DNA from: a virus
Virus record (IMG/VR): IMGVR_UViG_3300032093_000864
Coordinates: 1-23,320 of that record
Strand: one strand, 5' to 3'
Length of the DNA stretch: 23,320 nucleotides
Below the pieces are notes generated by a model. It was not told where the DNA came from and did no database searches. It saw nothing but the letters and a program-made list of their open reading frames with translations. Below, in pieces: positions 6,720 through 18,362 of this stretch. Position numbers and translations under genes: made by a program. How positions within the stretch are numbered: position 1 is the first letter of the stretch; every line of letters starts with the position of its first letter.

Positions 6720-9026
6720 TTGGAATTCCTTGATTATATACAGAATCTCGCGCCCGAGGGCGAAACAGCCTTAATCGTTCGTCAAAAACCTATCCTATCC
6801 GACGGCAAGCTACAGTTCCACGCGGACGGCGCCGTCAAATGCACATGGCCCGCCTACCTGCCCACACATAAGCGCAAAGACGGCGAGAGCTGGTACGGCA
6901 ACACGGCGTCGTTCATCAAAGACCGCTTCAAGGATGGGCGCCCCAGCGCGTCAGCCGCTAATTGCGAGTACATCCTGGTGATGATGTTAGACGACATCGG
7001 CACCAAATCGAAGACACCGCCGCTAGAACCCACCTGGATCATGGAGACGTCGCCCGGCTCATTCCAATGGGGTTACGCATTCTCAGAGCAGCCGACTAAG
7101 GCCGATTTCGCAGCAGCGATCCGCGCGATTGCAGACGCTGGCTACACGGACCCCGGCGCTTGCAATCCGGTGCGCAACTTCCGCCTGCCCGGCTCGGTCA
7201 ACCTAAAACCAGGCCGCGAGAGCTTCAAGGCGCAACTGGCTCGCTTTAATCCCGAGCGCGAGTACACACTGGAGCAAATCTGCGCAGCGCTCGATGTGAC
7301 GCCGGTCGCCGGTGTCGGTCTTGGACCGGTGCCGATCCGGCTGCAGGATGACGGCAGCGACGACGTCATGGCGTGGCTCTCCGAGCAGGGGCTGTTCCTG
7401 CGGCATCCGAACCCTGAAGGCTGGGCTGGCGTCATCTGCCCGAACCATGCCGAACATACCGACGGTAACCCTGAAGGGCGCTACCACCCAGCAAACCGGG
7501 CGTACTGCTGCCTGCACTCGCACTGCATCGAACTCGGCTCGGCGGCTTTTCTGGAGTGGGTCGCAGCCAATGGCGGCCCAAAACACTCGCCCGGCCCGCG
7601 TGAGGAACTATTGGCTGCAGTGATGACGACTGCCTTGTCGAAAATCCCCGGCGCTGGCATATTCGAAGACACGGCGGCGCAGATCGTGCAGGATATGGCC
7701 GCCAAGGACGAGCAGCGCCAGAACGCGCGCGGGCAGAAGGAAGATTGGTACAAGAGGTTTGCGTATGTACAAGAGGATGAAAGCTATTTTGATCTGCGCG
7801 ACCGTCGGGAAATTTCTCGATCTACTTTTAACGCACTTTTCCGACATATCCCCTGCCGGTCCATACATAACGGCGCCAAAATTGAGGCGGCTACGTGTTT
7901 CGACGAGAACCGCGAATCGAAGGATGCTTATGCGCTGGTCGGCATAACGTACGCGGCGGGCGACGATATTATCGTCCACCGTAACGGCCATCAGTACGGC
8001 AACCGCTGGCGCGACGCCCGGCCTGCAGGCGTCCCAGGCGACGTGACACCGTGGCTGGACCATGTCATGCGCATGATTCCGACTGATTTTGAGCGTGAGC
8101 ATTTCTTGAACGCGCTGGCCTTCAAGGTCCAGCACCCTGACCGCAAGATCAACCACGCTATTTTAGTCGGCGGCCATCCTGGCAGCGGCAAAGACACCAT
8201 GCTGGCGCCGTTTTTCTGGGCGATCGGCGGGTTGACTAAACAGAACTGCAGCCTGGTTAAGAACGAAGACTTAAACAGCCAGTGGGGCTACGCGCTCGAA
8301 TGCGAGGTGATGGAAATCGCCGAGCTGCGCCAGAGCGAGGCACGCGATAGGCGAGCGCTTGAAAACGCTTTGAAACCTATCATTGCAGCGCCGCCTGAGC
8401 TGTTGCAGGTGAACCGCAAGGGCTTGCACCCCTACATGGCGCTAAACCGTGTGTTTGTCGTCGCCTTTTCGAACGAGCGCGCAGCGATTTCAATCCCATC
8501 GAACGACCGCCGCTGGTTTTGCCTGTGGGCGGAAGCAGGCCGCCTACCTGAAGCAGACGCGTCGCGCTTGTGGCGCTGGTACCAGACCGGCGGCGGCTTT
8601 GAGGCGATCGCGTCCTGGCTGCACCAGCGTGATGTGACGGCGTTTAACCCTTCAGCGGCTCCACCGATGACCGAAGCGAAGGCCATCATGATCGACCAGG
8701 GCCGCAGTACCGCAGAGTCATACCTGATCGAGCAGATCACTGGCCGGCTGGGCGAGTTTGCCGGCGGCGTCATTGCGTCGCCCTTTTTCGCGCTTTGCGA
8801 CCGACTAGCGGGCGCCGCGCCTTCAGGCGTGAAAGTCCCACAAGTAGCACTGCTACACGCGCTCAGTGAGGCTGGCTGGGTCGACATGGGGCGCATACAC
8901 TCGGCCGAGCATCAAACCAGGAAGCAAATCTACTGCGCGCCGGAGCTGGCGACCCTGTCGAAAGCAGAACTGCGCCGCATGGCGGAGGATGTACCAGCGC
9001 CTGCAGCCGTTCGGCTGGTCAAATAA
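6720..9026 (+). CDS. Primase-helicase (RepB-like primase plus DUF5906-type SF3 helicase)
   Basis: A 768-residue bifunctional replication protein. The N-terminal half resembles RepB/archaeo-eukaryotic-type primases: VMMLDDIGTK (87-96), PTWIMETSPGSFQWGYAF (104-121) and NPVRNFRLPGSVNLK (149-163). A Cys/His cluster follows at about 240-269 (CPNH, then YCCLHSHC), probably zinc-binding. The C-terminal half is a phage superfamily 3 helicase with Walker A GGHPGSGKDT (484-493), an acidic Walker B-like EVMEIAEL (529-536), sensor VAFSNE (581-586, N585) and a likely arginine finger at R597/R598. The start is TTG 6720, unusual but supported by CGGAGA 6 nt upstream; no in-frame ATG near it precedes the conserved region. 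It would prime and unwind DNA for the polymerase encoded just upstream. Confidence 0.9.
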   Translation: MEFLDYIQNLAPEGETALIVRQKPILSDGKLQFHADGAVKCTWPAYLPTHKRKDGESWYGNTASFIKDRFKDGRPSASAANCEYILVMMLDDIGTKSKTPPLEPTWIMETSPGSFQWGYAFSEQPTKADFAAAIRAIADAGYTDPGACNPVRNFRLPGSVNLKPGRESFKAQLARFNPEREYTLEQICAALDVTPVAGVGLGPVPIRLQDDGSDDVMAWLSEQGLFLRHPNPEGWAGVICPNHAEHTDGNPEGRYHPANRAYCCLHSHCIELGSAAFLEWVAANGGPKHSPGPREELLAAVMTTALSKIPGAGIFEDTAAQIVQDMAAKDEQRQNARGQKEDWYKRFAYVQEDESYFDLRDRREISRSTFNALFRHIPCRSIHNGAKIEAATCFDENRESKDAYALVGITYAAGDDIIVHRNGHQYGNRWRDARPAGVPGDVTPWLDHVMRMIPTDFEREHFLNALAFKVQHPDRKINHAILVGGHPGSGKDTMLAPFFWAIGGLTKQNCSLVKNEDLNSQWGYALECEVMEIAELRQSEARDRRALENALKPIIAAPPELLQVNRKGLHPYMALNRVFVVAFSNERAAISIPSNDRRWFCLWAEAGRLPEADASRLWRWYQTGGGFEAIASWLHQRDVTAFNPSAAPPMTEAKAIMIDQGRSTAESYLIEQITGRLGEFAGGVIASPFFALCDRLAGAAPSGVKVPQVALLHALSEAGWVDMGRIHSAEHQTRKQIYCAPELATLSKAELRRMAEDVPAPAAVRLVK

Positions 9027-9689: not shown

Positions 9690-9856
9690 AGCTCAGACTC
9701 CATTAAGTAAGTATTGATTAAATGCAGCGCTTTTTCGGCACTTTCGGCGTTTGCATTCTCGAGCAAGGCGCGCGCTTGCCAAAGTAGTGATTCATTCGAG
9801 CCGGTCATTTCGGCGGTTTCTTGCGCGCGCAGAATCGCGGTTTTGAGTTTTGCCAT
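9677..9856 (-). CDS. Hypothetical small helical protein
   Basis: A 59-residue protein beginning MAKLKTAILRAQETAEMTGS and ending MESELCKR. It is almost entirely predicted helical: two Ala/Leu/Glu-rich helices (about 2-17 and 21-51) separated by TGSN. The ATG at 9856 has GAGGG 7 nt upstream. It overlaps the next gene by 13 nt and lies 2 nt after the preceding stop. A small helical hairpin of this kind could be a protein-binding inhibitor or regulator, but nothing in the sequence settles that. Confidence 0.65.
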   Translation of the reverse strand: MAKLKTAILRAQETAEMTGSNESLLWQARALLENANAESAEKALHLINTYLMESELCKR

Positions 9857-9858
9857 AA

Positions 9859-10011
9859 TTAACCCTCTAATAATAATTTTTTGAGATACGGCACGGCAAA
9901 ACCCGTCAAATTAGACAATTCCTTCAATGTCATATTCGGGTTTTGATCATAAATTCGTTTGATATCATCATGCGTAAGCCCGTTAATCGAGCGTTTTAGT
10001 GTGTATGCCAT
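9859..10011 (-). CDS. Small helix-turn-helix protein, putative DNA-binding regulator
   Basis: A 50-residue protein, MAYTLKRSINGLTHDDIKRI at the start. It reads as a tri-helical DNA-binding unit: helix 1 THDDIKRIYDQN (13-24), helix 2 TLKELSNLTG (28-37), a turn at FA, and recognition helix VPYLKKLLLEG (40-50). The pattern xLKELSNLTGFxVPYLKKLL is characteristic of phage helix-turn-helix regulators that consist of little else. A perfectly spaced GGAGAG precedes ATG 10011. It may regulate its own operon or bind the repeat boxes of the control region near 11.6-11.9 kb; that target is conjecture. Confidence 0.7.
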   Translation of the reverse strand: MAYTLKRSINGLTHDDIKRIYDQNPNMTLKELSNLTGFAVPYLKKLLLEG

Positions 10012-10028
10012 TGTTTTACTCTCCAGGT

Positions 10029-10193
10029 TTACCACAGCGCACGGCCGTGGCTTTCGATTGTCGGAACAGCGCGCGCCGGTATAGGCACGCGCCGCGTGAT
10101 ATACCGGCCATTAGCCGGCGGATAGTCAAGCCACTGAATAACCGTATCAAAACAGTCTAAGCGGCCGTATTGCAGCCGGTAACGGCCGCTCAT
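10029..10193 (-). CDS. Hypothetical small basic phage protein
   Basis: A 54-residue protein, MSGRYRLQYGRLDCFDTVIQ at the start, with two Arg-rich clusters (SGRYRLQYGR and RYITRRVPIPAR) and net positive charge. I chose ATG 10193 because it overlaps the upstream stop by 4 nt (ATGA), implying coupled translation; a GTG at 10214 is a longer alternative. There is no strong SD. The aromatic/basic surface could suit nucleic acid or membrane contact, but no family is recognised. Confidence 0.6.
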   Translation of the reverse strand: MSGRYRLQYGRLDCFDTVIQWLDYPPANGRYITRRVPIPARAVPTIESHGRALW

Positions 10194-10418: not shown

Positions 10419-11171
10419 TTAATAATCCCTCCCCTTAATTTGGACAAAACCGCCGGTGTCGCGTTTTGCCTTGCCTTTGGCATATAAGGCCACTACCACG
10501 CCGGCCGGTTCAATGTGACGTACATCAGTGTCATCGCCGTCAACGACCGGCCATCCGCGAAATTCGGCCGGTATATCGGCTTGCTTTTGGAATACCACGG
10601 CCGTGCGTTTATTTGCCGGATTAATCAGGCCTTTAATTGAGATCGGTTTTGGCGTGATAGCGCTGAATGAATAGGTTAAATCGTAATTGCCGGCCGTTTT
10701 GCCGTCTAACTTGCGGCTTGGGTGCTTTGTGTAATCGTAGAATTGAACGTCCGCGAACAGCTGGAAAATCGTTTTTCCGTCAATTTGGATGTTTTCAAAC
10801 GGGATATCGGACGTTCCATTCGGCCGTACCAGTGGAATCAGGCCAAGCTTTTCGGCACGGCGAGCGTGCGACCATATATCGGCGGCCATTGAGAGCATAA
10901 ACGCGCGCTGATTCTCGCGGAAAAACGCCGTTTTAGCGGCGCGTGCCTTTTGCGTACTGTTAAACGCGCCACGGCCGGATGATTTCAGGCACGGCTCGAA
11001 ACAACCGGCCATAATCGCGAACGGGCAGAGCTTTTCATCCGGTACCAAATAGCAGATAGCGGTTAGATAACCGATTTTTTGGCCTTTGATCGTTTTGGCG
11101 CTGGATTCGCCCAATATTGGCCGGTAAGGTAGGTTTTCGCGTTTGAGCTGGAGTTTGAACGGGTTTTGCAT
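10419..11171 (-). CDS. GP88-like conserved phage protein with cysteine motif
   Basis: A 250-residue protein, the largest in the accessory operon. After SAKTIKGQKIGYLTAICYL (24-42) comes the signature CPFAIMAGCFEPC (49-61), then SGRGAFNSTQKARAAKTAFF (65-84). A second conserved part reads FADVQFYDYTKHPSRK (139-154), and the end is VVVALYAKGKAKRDTGGFVQ. C40, C49, C57 and C61 are candidate metal ligands. I recognise this layout from the phage GP88-type family of unknown function; that assignment is from memory of the CPxAxxxCxxxC pattern and is moderately sure. ATG 11171 has AGGGAA upstream. It may be enzymatic, but no catalytic assignment is justified. Confidence 0.8.
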   Translation of the reverse strand: MQNPFKLQLKRENLPYRPILGESSAKTIKGQKIGYLTAICYLVPDEKLCPFAIMAGCFEPCLKSSGRGAFNSTQKARAAKTAFFRENQRAFMLSMAADIWSHARRAEKLGLIPLVRPNGTSDIPFENIQIDGKTIFQLFADVQFYDYTKHPSRKLDGKTAGNYDLTYSFSAITPKPISIKGLINPANKRTAVVFQKQADIPAEFRGWPVVDGDDTDVRHIEPAGVVVALYAKGKAKRDTGGFVQIKGRDY

Positions 11172-11194
11172 GGTCGGTTCCCTGGAAAGTGAAA

Positions 11195-11284
11195 TTAATA
11201 AGCCAGGCACATAAAGACGAATAACGCCAGCGCCGCGAATGCGCCGATCGCGCCGCAAATTTCAGCAAGTGTCGGTTTTTGCAT
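11195..11284 (-). CDS. 29-residue single-pass membrane peptide
   Basis: A 29-residue peptide beginning MQKPTLAEICGAIGAFAALA. After a short polar N-terminus, residues 9-29 are apolar (Ile, Ala, Phe, Leu, Val, with two Cys) and would span the membrane once. ATG 11284 has a well-spaced GGAGAA, better than expected by chance. It lies 23 nt before the GP88-like gene, directly behind a GC-rich hairpin. Holin-like, host-membrane-targeting or superinfection functions are possible; none can be chosen. Confidence 0.6.
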   Translation of the reverse strand: MQKPTLAEICGAIGAFAALALFVFMCLAY

Positions 11285-11560: not shown

Positions 11561-11588
11561 AGTATAAGACTTTTCTTTGCAATGTCAA
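11561..11588 (-). promoter_or_regulatory. Strong sigma70 promoter of the accessory operon
   Basis: On the minus strand a perfect -35 TTGACA (11588-11583) and a 16-nt spacer lead to TATACT (11566-11561, 5 of 6). Transcription would start near 11554, about 40 nt before ATG 11513. No other strong promoter occurs within the operon. Confidence 0.8.
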
Positions 11589-11775
11589 GGATTGTTTTGC
11601 ATTTATTTGCGATTCGCGGTTCCAATGGTCATTTAGGGGGTGAAATGGTCATAAAATGGTCATTTGGCACGGGCAAATGACCATGACAAAACCCGCATGG
11701 ATACTAGCTTTTGGCCAATAATGGTCAAATGGTCATTTATTTTTAGATGTTAGTAGTAGTAGTAGGTAATATAGG

Positions 11776-11816
11776 GAATCCCGTGCCGTGCACGCCAGAA
11801 TCCCGTGTCGTCACGC
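11776..11816. repeat. Imperfect 19-20 bp direct repeat in the control region
   Basis: GAATCCCGTGCCGTGCACGC (11776-11795) recurs 22 bp later as GAATCCCGTGTCGTCACGC (11798-11816), with one substitution and one deletion. The 22-bp period is close to two helical turns, so two bound proteins would lie on the same DNA face. It sits between the two groups of ATGGTCAT-type boxes. Confidence 0.65.
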
Positions 11817-11829
11817 AAAAATTTTGATT

Positions 11830-11857
11830 TTGCTTTGGGGTTAGCAGCGATTAAAAT
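11830..11857 (+). promoter_or_regulatory. Candidate plus-strand promoter for the structural side
   Basis: TTGCTT (11830-11835, 3 of 6) and a 16-nt spacer lead to TAAAAT (11852-11857, 5 of 6). The start would fall near 11864, inside the three tandem TGACCATT boxes (11862-11884). That placement suits repression at the start site. The weak -35 could mean an activator is needed. This is tentative. Confidence 0.35.
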
Positions 11858-11900
11858 TGCATGACCATTTGACCATTTGACCATGTCAGAGTGATAACAT

Positions 11901-12110
11901 ATGCCAGCAGGTAGACCCGCATCAATTCGCACGCGCAATTTCCTGCGTCATTTAACGGATACCGAAGCCGCGATTTTGGCTCATGCCGGCGACGGCGATA
12001 TCAGCGCCGGCTTCAAAAATCTACTCGACTGGTATCAGCAAATGCATTGTCAATCGGACAATGCTAACGATTTTGTTATATCTGATTGTGAGCCAAAGGG
12101 TAATAGTTGA
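11901..12110 (+). CDS. Small phage protein, possible ribbon-helix-helix DNA-binding protein
   Basis: A 69-residue protein, MPAGRPASIRTRNFLRHLTD at the start. The basic N-terminus, the short strand around TRNFLRHL, and the following helix-turn pattern TDTEAAILAHAGDGDISAGF and KNLLDWYQQM resemble ribbon-helix-helix or small regulator proteins of phages. The last 20 residues are acidic and probably disordered. The SD is weak (AGAGTGAT), and the gene begins 17 nt after the last repeat box, so it could bind and autoregulate that array. Several overlapping frames on the other strand lack an SD and a credible start, so I prefer this one. Family assignment is uncertain. Confidence 0.6.
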   Translation: MPAGRPASIRTRNFLRHLTDTEAAILAHAGDGDISAGFKNLLDWYQQMHCQSDNANDFVISDCEPKGNS

Positions 12111-12476: not shown

Positions 12477-12785
12477 ATGCCAGCCCCGATTAAAGACCCA
12501 CCGTACGTGCCGCCAGCGACGCTGCCAAAGACCGACACGCAGCGCATCAAAGAGTTGAAGCAAATGCTCATTGAAGGCAAGGGCGCTGACGTCGTGCAGA
12601 AGGTCATCACGATCGCGTTAGACGACGGCCACCCAGGCCAGATGGCCGCCTTAAAGATGTGTATGGACCGCGCACTACCGGCGAGCCTGTTTGAGAAGAC
12701 CGCCGCCCAGCGCAGCGCGATCAACATCACCATTACCGGCATCGGCCAGCCGGAGATCAAGGACATCACGGATGTCGGACCTTAA
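12477..12785 (+). CDS. terS: Terminase small subunit
   Basis: A 102-residue packaging protein. After a Pro-rich start (PPYVPPATLPK) come helices with RIKELKQMLIEGKGADVVQK (23-42) and IALDDGHPGQMAALKMCMDRALP (46-68), then LFEKTAAQRSAINITITGIG. The HPGQMAAxKxCMDRxLPxSLFE signature is typical of short small subunits in podovirus-like phages. The family forms a ring that binds the packaging site and delivers the concatemer to TerL. It overlaps the TerL start by 14 nt. The upstream palindromic stretch is the natural candidate for its target. Confidence 0.85.
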   Translation: MPAPIKDPPYVPPATLPKTDTQRIKELKQMLIEGKGADVVQKVITIALDDGHPGQMAALKMCMDRALPASLFEKTAAQRSAINITITGIGQPEIKDITDVGP

Positions 12786-14032: not shown

Positions 14033-16081
14033 ATGGACCAAAACGATTTTGACCAGCCCACTGAGAACGATAAAGAGCTTATCGCTTTCGTGGTAGAACA
14101 CTGCGACCGCTGGCGCGACTACCGCAACGTCAACTTTCTCCCGCTTTGGGAAGAATATGAGCGCATCTTCCGTGGCGAATGGGCCATTGAAGACAAAACG
14201 CGCGACTCTGAACGCTCCCGCATCGTAACCCCCATGACCCAGCAGGCTGTTGAGACACGCCACGCTGAGATCATGGAGGCGATCTTTGGCTCGGGTGAGT
14301 TCTTCGACATCAAGGACGACGTCAAGGACATCGACGGCAACCCGATGGATGTCGAGATGATCAAGATCCAGATGATGGAGGATCTGAAAAAGGACAAGTT
14401 CAGGAAGTACGTTGATCAGATTGAGTTGTTGGCCGAGATTTACGGCACGGGTATCGCCGAGATCACCGTCACAATGGAGAAGGAATACATCCCGGCGACC
14501 CAGCCGATTCCTGGCATGCAAGGCCAAGCGGCTATTGGTGTCAAGGAAGTAGACCGCGTCTCGGTCAAGCCCATACCGGTGAACCCGAAAAACTTCCTGT
14601 GGGATCCCAACGGCACGTCGGTGGACGACTGCATGGGCGTGGCAATTGAGAAGTACGTGTCGATCCACAAGGTGGTGGCCAACATTGAGAAGGGCGTCTA
14701 CCGCAAGGTCAACATCGTGCCGACCTACGACGACACGGACTTGGAGCCCACGCAAGAGGTCAGCCAGTACCAGAACGAAAAGGTCAAACTGCTGACCTAC
14801 TATGGTCTGGTGCCCAAGGAATATCTGGAGAAGTTGGACAGCGAAGACGAGGAGATGGTTGAGCTCTTCCCCGACGACTCGCCTGCTGAAGACTACTCCG
14901 ACATGGTCGAAGCCATCATCGTGATTGGTAACGACGGCATGCTGCTGAAGGCCGAAGCGAACCCGTACATGATGAAGGATCGTCCGGTGTTGACGTACCA
15001 GGACGACACGGTGCCTAACCGCCTGCCTGGCCGTGGCACGGTGGAAAAAGCGTACAACATGCAAAAGGCGATCGATGCACAGGTGCGCACGCACTTGGAC
15101 TCGCTGGCACTGACTGCGGTGCCGATGGTGGCAATGGATGCAACCCGTCTGCCACGGGGTGCCAAGTTCGAGGTGCGGCCGGGCAAGGCGTTCATGACCA
15201 ACGGCAACCCGTCGGAGATTCTGTATCCGTTCAAGTTCGGTCAGACTGATGGCAGTAGCCTGACGACTGCGCAGGCATTCGAGCGCATGCTCTTGCAAGC
15301 CACAGGCACCTTGGATAGCCAAGGCATGGTCAGCCAAGTGGCCAGAGATGGTGGCAACGCAGGTATGTCGATGGCGGTGGCTACCATCATCAAGAAGTAC
15401 AAGCGTACGCTGGTGAACTTCCAGGAAGACTTCCTGATTCCGTTTATCAAAAAAGCGGCGTTTCGGTACATGCAGTTTGACCCCGAGCGCTATCCTTCGG
15501 TTGATCTGAACTTCGTACCAACTGCGACACTGGGCATCATCGCTCGCGAGTACGAGCAGGCGCAGTTCATCGCCTTGCTGCAGACCCTTGGCCCCGACAC
15601 ACCGGTGCTGCCATTGATTCTGAAAGGTATTGTGGCCAACAGCTCGCTGTCGAACCGCATGGAGTTGATGGAATCCCTGACTCAGATGGCCCAGCCGAAC
15701 CCAGAAGCGCAGCAAGCCGCCATGATGCAGCAGCAGCTGGCCATGCAGGCAGCGCAAGCGCAGATTGCGGTCAATCAGACGCAGGCCGAACGCAACCGGG
15801 CAGAGGCTATCAACACCACAATCGAGACGAAATTAAAGCCCATTGAGGTGCAGAGCAAGATTATGGCGGCCAATACGCAAAATCTGCCGACTAACGACGA
15901 GATGGCGTCTAGAGAGTTTGACAAACGGGTGAAGATCGCCGAATTGATGCTCAAAGAAGCCGACATCAAGAACAAATCGAAGATTGTCGAGATGCAAATG
16001 GCGGAAAAGCAGAACAAAATCAGCGGCATGGAAGAAGATTTCTTGGAAGAACTGACCAAGGAGCTCTCTGGTGGACGTTGA
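14033..16081 (+). CDS. Portal protein (head-to-tail connector)
   Basis: A 682-residue podovirus-like portal, forming the dodecameric ring at the capsid vertex through which TerL pumps DNA. It starts MDQNDFDQPTENDKELIAFV, with LWEEYERIFRGEW near 38-50 and the typical RSRIVTPMTQQAVETRHAEI block near 63-82. The core has alternating strands and helices with GRGTVEKAYNMQKAIDAQVR. The last ~150 residues are Gln/Ala-rich, then a charged coiled coil up to ELTKELSGGR, probably a barrel or scaffold-contacting tail. ATG 14033 has GGGGTGTAGG immediately upstream. It overlaps the tail-fibre start by 11 nt. The length (P22 has about 725) fits podoviruses rather than HK97-like siphoviruses. Confidence 0.9.
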   Translation: MDQNDFDQPTENDKELIAFVVEHCDRWRDYRNVNFLPLWEEYERIFRGEWAIEDKTRDSERSRIVTPMTQQAVETRHAEIMEAIFGSGEFFDIKDDVKDIDGNPMDVEMIKIQMMEDLKKDKFRKYVDQIELLAEIYGTGIAEITVTMEKEYIPATQPIPGMQGQAAIGVKEVDRVSVKPIPVNPKNFLWDPNGTSVDDCMGVAIEKYVSIHKVVANIEKGVYRKVNIVPTYDDTDLEPTQEVSQYQNEKVKLLTYYGLVPKEYLEKLDSEDEEMVELFPDDSPAEDYSDMVEAIIVIGNDGMLLKAEANPYMMKDRPVLTYQDDTVPNRLPGRGTVEKAYNMQKAIDAQVRTHLDSLALTAVPMVAMDATRLPRGAKFEVRPGKAFMTNGNPSEILYPFKFGQTDGSSLTTAQAFERMLLQATGTLDSQGMVSQVARDGGNAGMSMAVATIIKKYKRTLVNFQEDFLIPFIKKAAFRYMQFDPERYPSVDLNFVPTATLGIIAREYEQAQFIALLQTLGPDTPVLPLILKGIVANSSLSNRMELMESLTQMAQPNPEAQQAAMMQQQLAMQAAQAQIAVNQTQAERNRAEAINTTIETKLKPIEVQSKIMAANTQNLPTNDEMASREFDKRVKIAELMLKEADIKNKSKIVEMQMAEKQNKISGMEEDFLEELTKELSGGR

Positions 16082-18362
16082 AAGCCTCGCTAAACAGCTG
16101 ATTCTTCAAAATATGACGCCAGAGCAGCAAAAAGCTGTTCTGGAGTCGGTTCGTGCCACCCTGCAAGAGGCTCGCGGCAAGCAAAAACAGCGTGTGAGCG
16201 AGAATGTGGGCATGGTGGTAGACGCCTTGAAGAAGATCGAGGCTGATATTCGTGCCAAGTACGATGATTTAGGCAACAAAATCACCGCTCGGGTCAATTC
16301 GATCCGCGATGGCCGGGATGGCACCAATGGATCGGACGGTCGTGATGGCCAAGATGGCCGTCCTGGGCGTGATGGTGCACCGGGACCCGCAGGTCCAGCT
16401 GGTCGGGACGGTGCCAACGGCATCGATGGCAAGGATGGGGTATCTGTCACCGACGCCAAGATTGATTTTGATGGTTCGCTCATCATTAGTCTGTCGAATG
16501 GCCGTGAAATCAACGTTGGTGAGGTGGTGGCTCCCGACTTAGCGGAGAAAATCAAGGTCATCACCAACGGTGGTGGCACGTCGCAGTATGTCTTGGACAC
16601 ACTGGCGTCACTCCAGACGCAGATCAATAACCTGATCCCCAGCCAGACGGGCAATGCAGGTAAGTTCTTGACCACCAATGGGTCGGTATTGTCATGGGCG
16701 GACGTGGCTGGCGGCTTGGACTACCAAGGCACATGGAATGCGTCTACTAACACGCCAACTTTGGCCTCCGGCGTAGGCACCAACGGCTACTACTACGTGG
16801 TATCGGTCGATGGTACGACTACCTTGGACGGTATCAGCGACTGGAAAGCGGGTGATTGGCTGCTGTTTAACGGCACCGTGTGGCAAAAGATTGACCAGAG
16901 TTGGGCGATTGCCGGTGCCAACGACAACATCACGTCGATGACGGGCATCACGGGCGGCATTTCATCGCCGGACTTCGTCCAGTTCGACACAGGCGCCACA
17001 GTCACCAACGCAGCAGGCCGTCTGTACTGGGATTCGACGCAACAGACGTTGACAGTAGGTTTGAACGCCAACATCGCGGCGGATATTGGCCAAACGCTGT
17101 ACGCCTACGCGACGAATGACGAGGCCGTGACGATCACCAAGGGCCAGCCGGTGTACATGTACGCTGCGCAAGGCGACCGGGTGTCAGTCAAGCTGGCGTA
17201 CAACACGGGTGACGCGACTTCAGCCAAAACGCTGGGTATTTGCGCGGAAAATATTGCTGCAGGCCAAGCAGGCATGATCTTGTGCCAGGGTGTGCAAGAT
17301 GGCCTCGATCTGAGTGCCTACACAGCCGGTGATACGCTCTATTTGGGCGCAACTGCCGGCACTTTAACCAGTACGAAGCCTTACGCACCTAACCATCTGG
17401 TCTATATCGGCGTGGTTGAGCGGGCTAATGCGGGCAATGGTCGTCTGTACGTGCGCGTGCAGAATGGCTATGAGATGGACGAGCTGCACAATGTGTCAGC
17501 GCAGAGTCCATCTAATGGTCAGGTATTGATTTACAACGCATCAACCAGTCTGTGGGAAAAGAATACGCTGACTGATGGCACGGGCATCACAATTACTGAG
17601 GGTGCGGGGTCAATTACGATCACTAATGCAGCGCCTGACCAAACGGTCGCCTTGACGGGCGCTGGTACAACGGCTATCACAGGCACCTACCCCAACTTTA
17701 CGATTACCTCGAACGATCAGTACACAGGCACGGTCACAAGCGTTGGCGGCACCGGTACGGTCAACGGCATTAGCTTGTCGGGCACGGTCACATCCAGTGG
17801 CAGTCTGACCTTGGGCGGCACGCTTTCTGGTGTGGATCTGACTACCCAAGTTACTGGCACGCTGCCGATTGCTAATGGTGGTACAGGACAGACGACACAG
17901 ACTGCAGCGTTTGACGCACTAGCGCCGACGACGACTAAGGGTGATTTGATTGTCAATGACGGGTCGGATAATGTCCGCCTGGCAGTTGGTACCAACAACT
18001 ATGTATTGACAGCTGACTCTGCACAGGCAACGGGTGTGAAATGGGCAGCTGTGGCAGCCGGCACCACGGTGTCTGACGACACCTCGACCAACGCAACGTA
18101 CTACCCAACGTTCTCAACAGCGACTTCAGGAACGTTCTCAACGGCTACGGTATCGAGTACCAAACTGACCTATAACCCATCGCTGGGCGGCTTGACAGCT
18201 ACACAACTAGGCGCGTCGAATGGTATTTTGTTCACCAACCAGACGATCAATACGTCGGTGACATTTCCAACAGGCTATGAAGGCATCAGCGGTAAGAATA
18301 CAACCGTCGCTAGTGGTGTGACAGTGACTGTCCCCTCTGGCGCTAACTGGACGATAGTGTGA
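16071..18362 (+). CDS. Collagen-repeat tail fibre protein
   Basis: A 763-residue trimeric fibre. It starts at GTG 16071, with AAGGAG 7 nt upstream inside the portal gene. Residues 5-75 are helical or coiled-coil. Residues 81-123 are 14 Gly-X-Y triplets (GRDGTNGSDGRDG and so on), a collagen-like rod. Residues about 216-275 (LDYQGTWNASTNTP, then WKAGDWLLFNGTVWQKID) and 340-475 (KGQPVYMYAAQGDRVSVK to ELHNVSAQSP) are blocks common to phage fibres. Residues 597-660 carry the familiar LPIANGGTGQTT and TTTKGDLIVNDGSDNVRLAV module. The C-terminus is beta-rich and lacks Cys. The first helical part may dock it on the tail or capsid; the C-terminal part probably contacts the host receptor. Confidence 0.88.
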   Translation: MDVESLAKQLILQNMTPEQQKAVLESVRATLQEARGKQKQRVSENVGMVVDALKKIEADIRAKYDDLGNKITARVNSIRDGRDGTNGSDGRDGQDGRPGRDGAPGPAGPAGRDGANGIDGKDGVSVTDAKIDFDGSLIISLSNGREINVGEVVAPDLAEKIKVITNGGGTSQYVLDTLASLQTQINNLIPSQTGNAGKFLTTNGSVLSWADVAGGLDYQGTWNASTNTPTLASGVGTNGYYYVVSVDGTTTLDGISDWKAGDWLLFNGTVWQKIDQSWAIAGANDNITSMTGITGGISSPDFVQFDTGATVTNAAGRLYWDSTQQTLTVGLNANIAADIGQTLYAYATNDEAVTITKGQPVYMYAAQGDRVSVKLAYNTGDATSAKTLGICAENIAAGQAGMILCQGVQDGLDLSAYTAGDTLYLGATAGTLTSTKPYAPNHLVYIGVVERANAGNGRLYVRVQNGYEMDELHNVSAQSPSNGQVLIYNASTSLWEKNTLTDGTGITITEGAGSITITNAAPDQTVALTGAGTTAITGTYPNFTITSNDQYTGTVTSVGGTGTVNGISLSGTVTSSGSLTLGGTLSGVDLTTQVTGTLPIANGGTGQTTQTAAFDALAPTTTKGDLIVNDGSDNVRLAVGTNNYVLTADSAQATGVKWAAVAAGTTVSDDTSTNATYYPTFSTATSGTFSTATVSSTKLTYNPSLGGLTATQLGASNGILFTNQTINTSVTFPTGYEGISGKNTTVASGVTVTVPSGANWTIV

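Follow-up and report, generated by a model that had tools for sequence, protein, structure and literature searches.

The box array and its surroundings

The window analysed here, 23,320 bp long, is an entire IMG/VR record and represents a fragment of a virus whose terminally redundant relatives are ~37 kb in size. It encodes a primase-helicase and, 2.6 kb from this gene, contains an array of short repeated boxes that is located between divergent promoters and adjoins the gene of a small, 69 amino acid protein (Table 1). The window also encodes a long, probable tail-fibre protein (16071-18362), which contains a collagen-like Gly-X-Y stretch and is strongly variable between relatives.

Table 1. 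Positions of the array, its boxes and the related proteins in the window
Feature	Position	Strand	Basis or remark
Primase-helicase, 768 aa (DUF5906 / D5-like SF3), candidate initiator and reader of the boxes	6720..9026	+	Pfam, PHROG, Foldseek
Predicted C-terminal winged-helix domain, residues 664-757	8709..8990	+	AlphaFold2, mean pLDDT 84.6, core 90-98
Wing loop covarying with the box, residues 726-734 (IHSAEHQTR)	8895..8921	+	pairwise comparisons
Leftward sigma-70-like promoter match TTGACA-16-TATACT, abuts left boxes	11561..11588	-	11/12 consensus matches, consensus only
Iteron box 1 (ATGGTCAT)	11625..11632	+	sequence count
Iteron box 2 (ATGGTCAT)	11645..11652	+	sequence count
Iteron box 3 (ATGGTCAT)	11656..11663	+	sequence count
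Iteron box 4, inverted	11677..11684	-	inverted box here also in GAGGGCA, GTAGGCA, GTGGGCA, TTGGGTCA and GTTAGTCA relatives
Iteron boxes 5-6, an 8-bp tandem pair (starts 11721, 11729)	11721..11736	+	sequence count
AT-rich tract separating the box groups, candidate unwinding element	11733..11775	.	AT content
Iteron boxes 7-9, an 8-bp tandem triplet, opposite in orientation to left group (starts 11861, 11869, 11877)	11861..11884	-	sequence count
69-aa small protein downstream of array, ribbon-helix-helix-like by eye	11901..12110	+	inspection

By direct count of the window sequence, nine copies of ATGGTCA are found within 11625-11884, where ~0.03 would be expected per 260 bp; the whole window contains 13. 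This is far above chance and agrees with an earlier note on this DNA, which described about nine boxes between divergent operons. When up to one mismatch is allowed, the 8-mer ATGGTCAT appears 31 times in the window against 15.9 expected, an excess of about twofold over shuffled sequences (0 of 100 shuffles reach 31) of which the array cluster supplies much. The boxes are arranged as a left group of six, five forward and one inverted, and a right group of three tandem inverted copies. The right triplet directly follows a GCGATT(T)AAAAT (TTTAAAAT) element, which is conserved and lies upstream of the gene of the 69-residue protein. In the tract between the groups, the 40-bp stretch starting at 11733-11735 is 77.5% AT, which is the window maximum jointly with 9843-9849 (window mean 46%).

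The earlier note also suggested that the boxes are generally symmetric, with AAATG and CATTT halves, as sites of a dimeric regulator. Analysis of the individual copies contradicts this, as both halves are present in only two of the nine boxes (11656 and 11729), most boxes are asymmetric and the boxes of relatives are not palindromes. The boxes that relatives have in this array (TGAGGGCAAT, TGCACGTCAT) are clearly directional, and monomer sites with a direction are the best reading of the boxes. The described tandem spacing of exactly 8 bp was found in the right triplet and in the pair 11721/11729, but it is no fixed rule, because tandem boxes of another sequence are often spaced at 9 bp in relatives. 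The suggested likeness to the tandem iterons of phage origins is supported by the directional repeat cluster together with the AT-rich region; GC skew, examined for an origin signal, shows no clean switch. The right boxes also contain TTTGACCATT (11866-11884), found as well at the end of a test oligonucleotide of the NrS-1 polymerase (PMC7102993). The motif of this polymerase is given as TTTGGTTA in another paper, and the match is probably a coincidence.

The primase-helicase and its predicted winged helix

The primase-helicase matches DUF5906 (PF19263) in Pfam with an E-value of 8.9e-10, above the family cut-off, and DNA primase in PHROGs (phrog_1156, 3.8e-20). Its Walker A motif, GGHPGSGKDT (residues 484-493), is conserved in 33 sequences. 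The N-terminal part, where the model is poor, matches RepB_primase at 8.6e-5, just below the Pfam cut-off (22.9 vs 24.3 bits), and no TOPRIM family is found in the Pfam listing for the protein. The predicted fold of the helicase body, where model confidence is moderate, is matched by Foldseek to the NrS-1 C-terminal region (6k9c, E 6.8e-13) and, at ~1e-5, to D5, as in the helicases of poxviruses, and SaPI5 PriRep.

Prediction of the C-terminal structure shows a winged-helix domain with the topology a1-b1-a2-a3-b2-wing-b3 (a1 664-674, b1 684-686, a2 689-699, a3 708-717, b2 721-726, wing 727-734, b3 735-739), on which the full-length and domain AlphaFold2 models agree. Known winged helices dominate the fold comparison of this domain, the best match having a Z of 6.5 and an rmsd of 4.0 over 91 residues. 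A Foldseek search with the domain alone gave no close solved relative, with nothing at E <0.001 (best E 0.055), and the P4 origin-binding domain is absent among the matches listed. Conservation is strong in helix a3 (mean entropy 0.55 bits), whereas the wing is variable (1.69).

Box arrays in related phages

Loci of relatives were found through the 69-residue protein, the gene at 12477-12785 (in the small-terminase position) and the primase-helicase, and their arrays lie at the same place as in the window. Since the window is the whole record of this virus, the genome-wide box scan that the earlier note proposed was run on complete or near-complete relatives, where it bore out the clustering: G011, G005 and G001 have 11-15 exact ATGGTCA copies, and 8-10 of these are in the array.

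The geometry of the array is conserved throughout a large group of phages of ~37 kb, while the box sequence is swapped wholesale between near-identical relatives. In close relatives the number, order, orientation and spacing of the boxes are largely kept while the spelling changes in place, and the words flanking the boxes are partly retained. Relative to the 69-residue protein gene, the window boxes are located at -276+, -256+, -245+, -223-, -180+, -172+, -39-, -31- and -23-, and those of one relative (G006) at -284+, -272+, -263+, -251+, -227-, -186+, -177+, -32- and -23-. The six-letter versions found across the group are AAATGG, TGAGGG, TGCGGG, TGTAGG, TGTCGG, TGTGGG, TGCACG, TTGTAG, TGTTAG, GCTAGG and others, and the box spellings are ATGGTCA, GAGGGCA, GCGGGCA, GTAGGCA, GTCGGCA, GTGGGCA or GTGGGTCA, GCACGTCA, GTAGTCA, GTTAGTCA, TAGGTCA and others. 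The boxes share a 10-letter frame, roughly TGNNGN(CA/TC)AT, in which the CA/TC choice differs within one genome (e.g. G037 and G002) and the earlier bases form the address. On a maximum-likelihood tree of primase-helicase residues 1-700, the box changed at least 21 times across 41 tips. In MW202483, a named relative from Manatee Spring (52% identical), the wing is different and the matching region contains eight copies of GTTTACAT.

Members of the group with different boxes were found in one sample, namely 3300042544_002067 (L023) with GTAGGCA and 3300042544_000871 (L194) with ATGGTCA, and metagenomes 3300031963 and 3300047510 also contain members with differing boxes. Such co-occurrence is suggestive of compatibility groups. 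A search of a genome collection for the host returned only contigs of metagenome-assembled genomes, several of them betaproteobacterial.

Other repeats were seen along the way. In another clade (L255, L256, L258, L231 and others) a partly palindromic repeat, AAGTTAGTG / CACTAACTT, is present in 7-14 copies ~2-3 kb downstream of the primase-helicase, and some of these loci also have TGTGGACA-type boxes. Loci L082-L086 have ten CGGCCCG in ~450 bp, ~550 bp upstream of the gene in the small-terminase position, which may be coding repeats. Six unrelated contigs (L104, L106, L109, L114, L127 and L130) carry 2-4 ATGGTCA, tandem or clustered, with four each in L104 and L106; a recognised primase-helicase was not found in their available DNA.

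Covariation of the wing with the box

Eight close primase-helicases, when compared, show perfect sorting by box type at residues 727, 731, 732 and their neighbours: the wing H-S-A-E-H-Q-T-R accompanies ATGGTCA, A-T-R-E-L-T-T-K accompanies GAGGGCA and G-S-R-E-F-(L/P)-T-K accompanies GTAGGCA. Single-column mutual information over the primase-helicase also ranks residue 727 first; because clade-specific columns elsewhere scored high as well, pair-based tests were used. We compared pairs that are at least 88% identical elsewhere in the primase-helicase among 42 box-typed loci, leaving out loci where automatic box calling picked other or coding repeats. With box classes assigned by hand from k-mers, non-independent pairs and some incomplete contigs, residues 726-734 differ by 50% in different-box pairs (n=91) vs 5% in same-box pairs (n=46). 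This is the best 9-residue window in the protein, and the best window off the wing differs by no more than 0.17. One example is the pair G001 and G026, with ATGGTCA and TGAGGGCA boxes respectively: these sister proteins are 99% identical outside residues 720-740 and differ mainly in the wing, where seven of the nine segment residues are changed. The model places the covarying segment in the wing of the predicted winged-helix domain, with a pLDDT above 90.

The same test on the 18 proteins of the window, five of them small or patchy with too few pairs to compute, gives 0.46 for the primase-helicase and 0.19 for the next of the 17 others. The test was repeated for two complete genomes, and among their testable proteins the primase-helicase once more ranks top (0.46), followed by 0.31, a value from only four pairs a side, and 0.26. 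The relation extends to distant relatives. In pairs less than 80% identical, wing similarity follows box similarity, with a rho that reaches 0.54 and ranks first among 761 windows, against -0.12 for overall identity. Among such relatives, the one with the nearest wing has exactly the same box class 47% of the time; this figure is 0% when the relative nearest overall is taken and 9% for a random choice. When 2.9 million contigs were scanned with AAATGGTCAAATGGTCAW alone, the hits outside the window's own group included L119 and L125; their helicases are only 48-50% identical and have the wings HSVEHQS and HSATNPT beside ATGGTCA arrays. Similarly, TGTAAGCAAT boxes accompany the wings ASRDHTTRK in L271 (63% identical) and ASRAHSTRK in L260. 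The wing HSREFAT, however, occurs with two half-variant boxes, TGTGGGCAAT and TGTGGGTCAT, and therefore the wing does not specify every base.

One possible source of this pattern is a single large recombination tract that moves box and wing together. As the sole cause this is unlikely, since the two are 2.6 kb apart and the gene is otherwise ~91-93% identical in DNA between G000 and the GAGGGCA phages, with 14-15 of the 27 wing positions differing. The 100 nt on either side of the wing are somewhat more diverged than the gene average, and because of this a short recombined piece around the wing is possible.

Based on this covariation, the primase-helicase is the probable sequence-specific reader of the boxes. 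Another hypothesis is that the boxes are single-strand priming sites read by its N-terminal primase part in the manner of NrS-1, whose enzyme requires an 8-nt template motif and whose polymerase fold is matched by the helicase part. We find this hard to credit, as the covariation with the box is located in the C-terminal wing and absent from the N-terminal half, and the NrS-1 genome has two motif copies against the nine boxes here. A double use, in priming and in origin recognition, may also apply to the boxes.

Other candidate readers

The earlier note, which made no mention of the primase-helicase, named two small proteins as candidate binders, and both are very unlikely in this role. In the 69-residue protein the first 51 residues are identical between an ATGGTCA phage (L005) and GTAGGCA phages (L006 and L007). 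The helix-turn-helix protein (9859-10035, 58 residues from the first start codon) is present in only eight of the 42 box-typed relatives, with 96% identity between those that have different boxes. A GP88-family protein (10419-11258; PF17338, E 2.7e-34) was rejected as a reader as well, being found in only eight of the 42. Searches of Pfam and PHROGs with the small proteins of the window gave nothing useful; the 69-residue protein has no match in either, nor among named phages.

Tandem 8-bp sites fit ribbon-helix-helix proteins, as in MetJ-type proteins. Such sites, next to the gene of a ribbon-helix-helix-like product, would suit operators of a small dedicated regulator, for example the 69-residue protein, and the 2.6-kb distance and divergent-promoter setting of the array would also be suited to an operator. 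Yet the constancy of residues 1-51 across box types and a best covariation window of 0.13, against 0.46 for the wing, make this option highly improbable. The 69-residue protein could be an accessory factor without a role in specificity.

A probable replication origin

The mechanism that best fits these data, and which we consider very probable on the combined grounds of sequence, structural model and analogy, is that the array is the replication origin of the phage and that its iterons are read by the predicted C-terminal winged helix of its own primase-helicase. The conserved helices of this domain would presumably hold a common frame on the box, while the eight- to nine-residue wing between b2 and b3 (726-734) would read the variable bases. 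The AT-rich tract is flanked by left and right box groups that point towards each other, and therefore two helicase rings would assemble; the duplex would then be opened at the tract and priming would start. By analogy, opposed box groups of this kind around an AT-rich tract would mark an origin at which helicase rings assemble.

Binding of the boxes may also affect the promoters that flank or underlie them. Such transcriptional effects are likely a by-product, given that the left boxes lie near the leftward promoter match and the right triplet follows the TTTAAAAT element. The opposite weighting, in which the primase-helicase reads the boxes mainly to shut or switch the pair of divergent promoters while replication begins at another place, draws on the same two facts: the near-perfect promoter that abuts the left boxes and the position of the right triplet just after the conserved element upstream of the 69-residue protein gene. 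We regard it as improbable, because studied primase-helicases of like architecture bind origins and the opposed groups around the AT-rich tract look origin-like, although both roles may coexist.

With the array read as an origin, a probable origin and initiator can be named for a widespread uncultured phage group, and the residues that would set specificity are pinned down. Up to nine or ten boxes and about six residues were replaced together, at least 21 times on one tree, which makes this an unusually clean natural experiment on the joint change of a protein and its site that can be read directly. One broader suggestion, to which we give about an even chance, is that this freshwater group holds at least 12 largely exclusive lock-and-key pairs of origin and wing that are kept by selection, the wing and not the recognition helix being the readable code. 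If this is true, selection might act through the avoidance of cross-replication in co-infection, or through escape from satellites or defences that target origins. Several questions become testable: how a winged helix reads bases through its wing, how an initiator reaches a new address without dying midway, and why close phages diverge in their origin address (compatibility groups, satellites or defence). The natural origin/wing pairs are also ready candidates for orthogonal replicons.

Comparison with known systems

Iterons whose layout is conserved while the repeat sequences differ between close relatives are described for geminivirus Rep (PMC12548392), and in the V. cholerae PLE the replication module and origin are swapped (PMC8263062). 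The initiators there, the rolling-circle Rep and PLE RepA, are unrelated to the primase-helicase of the window, and the text consulted does not describe a many-way code in a helicase wing (PMC12548392, PMC8263062). The literature searched, with partial coverage, likewise gave no account of many-way specificity set in the wing of a phage primase-helicase.

NrS-1, a ~37 kb phage in which an 8-nt motif directs initiation, supplies the structure that fits the helicase body best (6k9c). It is, however, the N-terminal part of the NrS-1 protein that reads this motif, on the template; the NrS-1 genome has two copies of the motif, and the tail domain is described as having another fold than a winged-helix tail. 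SaPI Rep and Cch2 bind iterons or repeats through their C-terminal domains, and the origin repeats of SCCmec are read by the C-terminal domain of the initiator helicase according to in vitro evidence (PMC7581432). The SaPI Rep, SaPI5 and SCCmec Cch2 proteins thus share with the window protein an initiator helicase type with an iteron-binding C-terminal domain (putative here), and the SaPI5 structure is a Foldseek match. They differ in belonging to staphylococcal satellites or chromosomal islands, and their iterons directly follow the gene, whereas here they are 2.6 kb off, between divergent operons.

A single polypeptide, P4 alpha, comprises the primase, the helicase and the winged helix by which the short origin repeats are bound (PMC4234260). 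The window protein resembles it in having repeats and a predicted C-terminal winged helix on a primase-helicase; swapped repeat specificities read by the wing were not found for P4 in the literature searched. P4 has a TOPRIM-type primase and the N-terminal part of the window protein instead has a match, just under the Pfam cut-off, to the RepB/AEP type, and because of this we describe the protein as one that would work like P4 alpha, not as a member of its family. Iterons read by a helicase C-terminal domain, and iterons that differ between close relatives in geminiviruses and PLE satellites, were thus already known, and what the sequences suggest as new is the switching of at least 12 natural origin/initiator specificities within one phage group.
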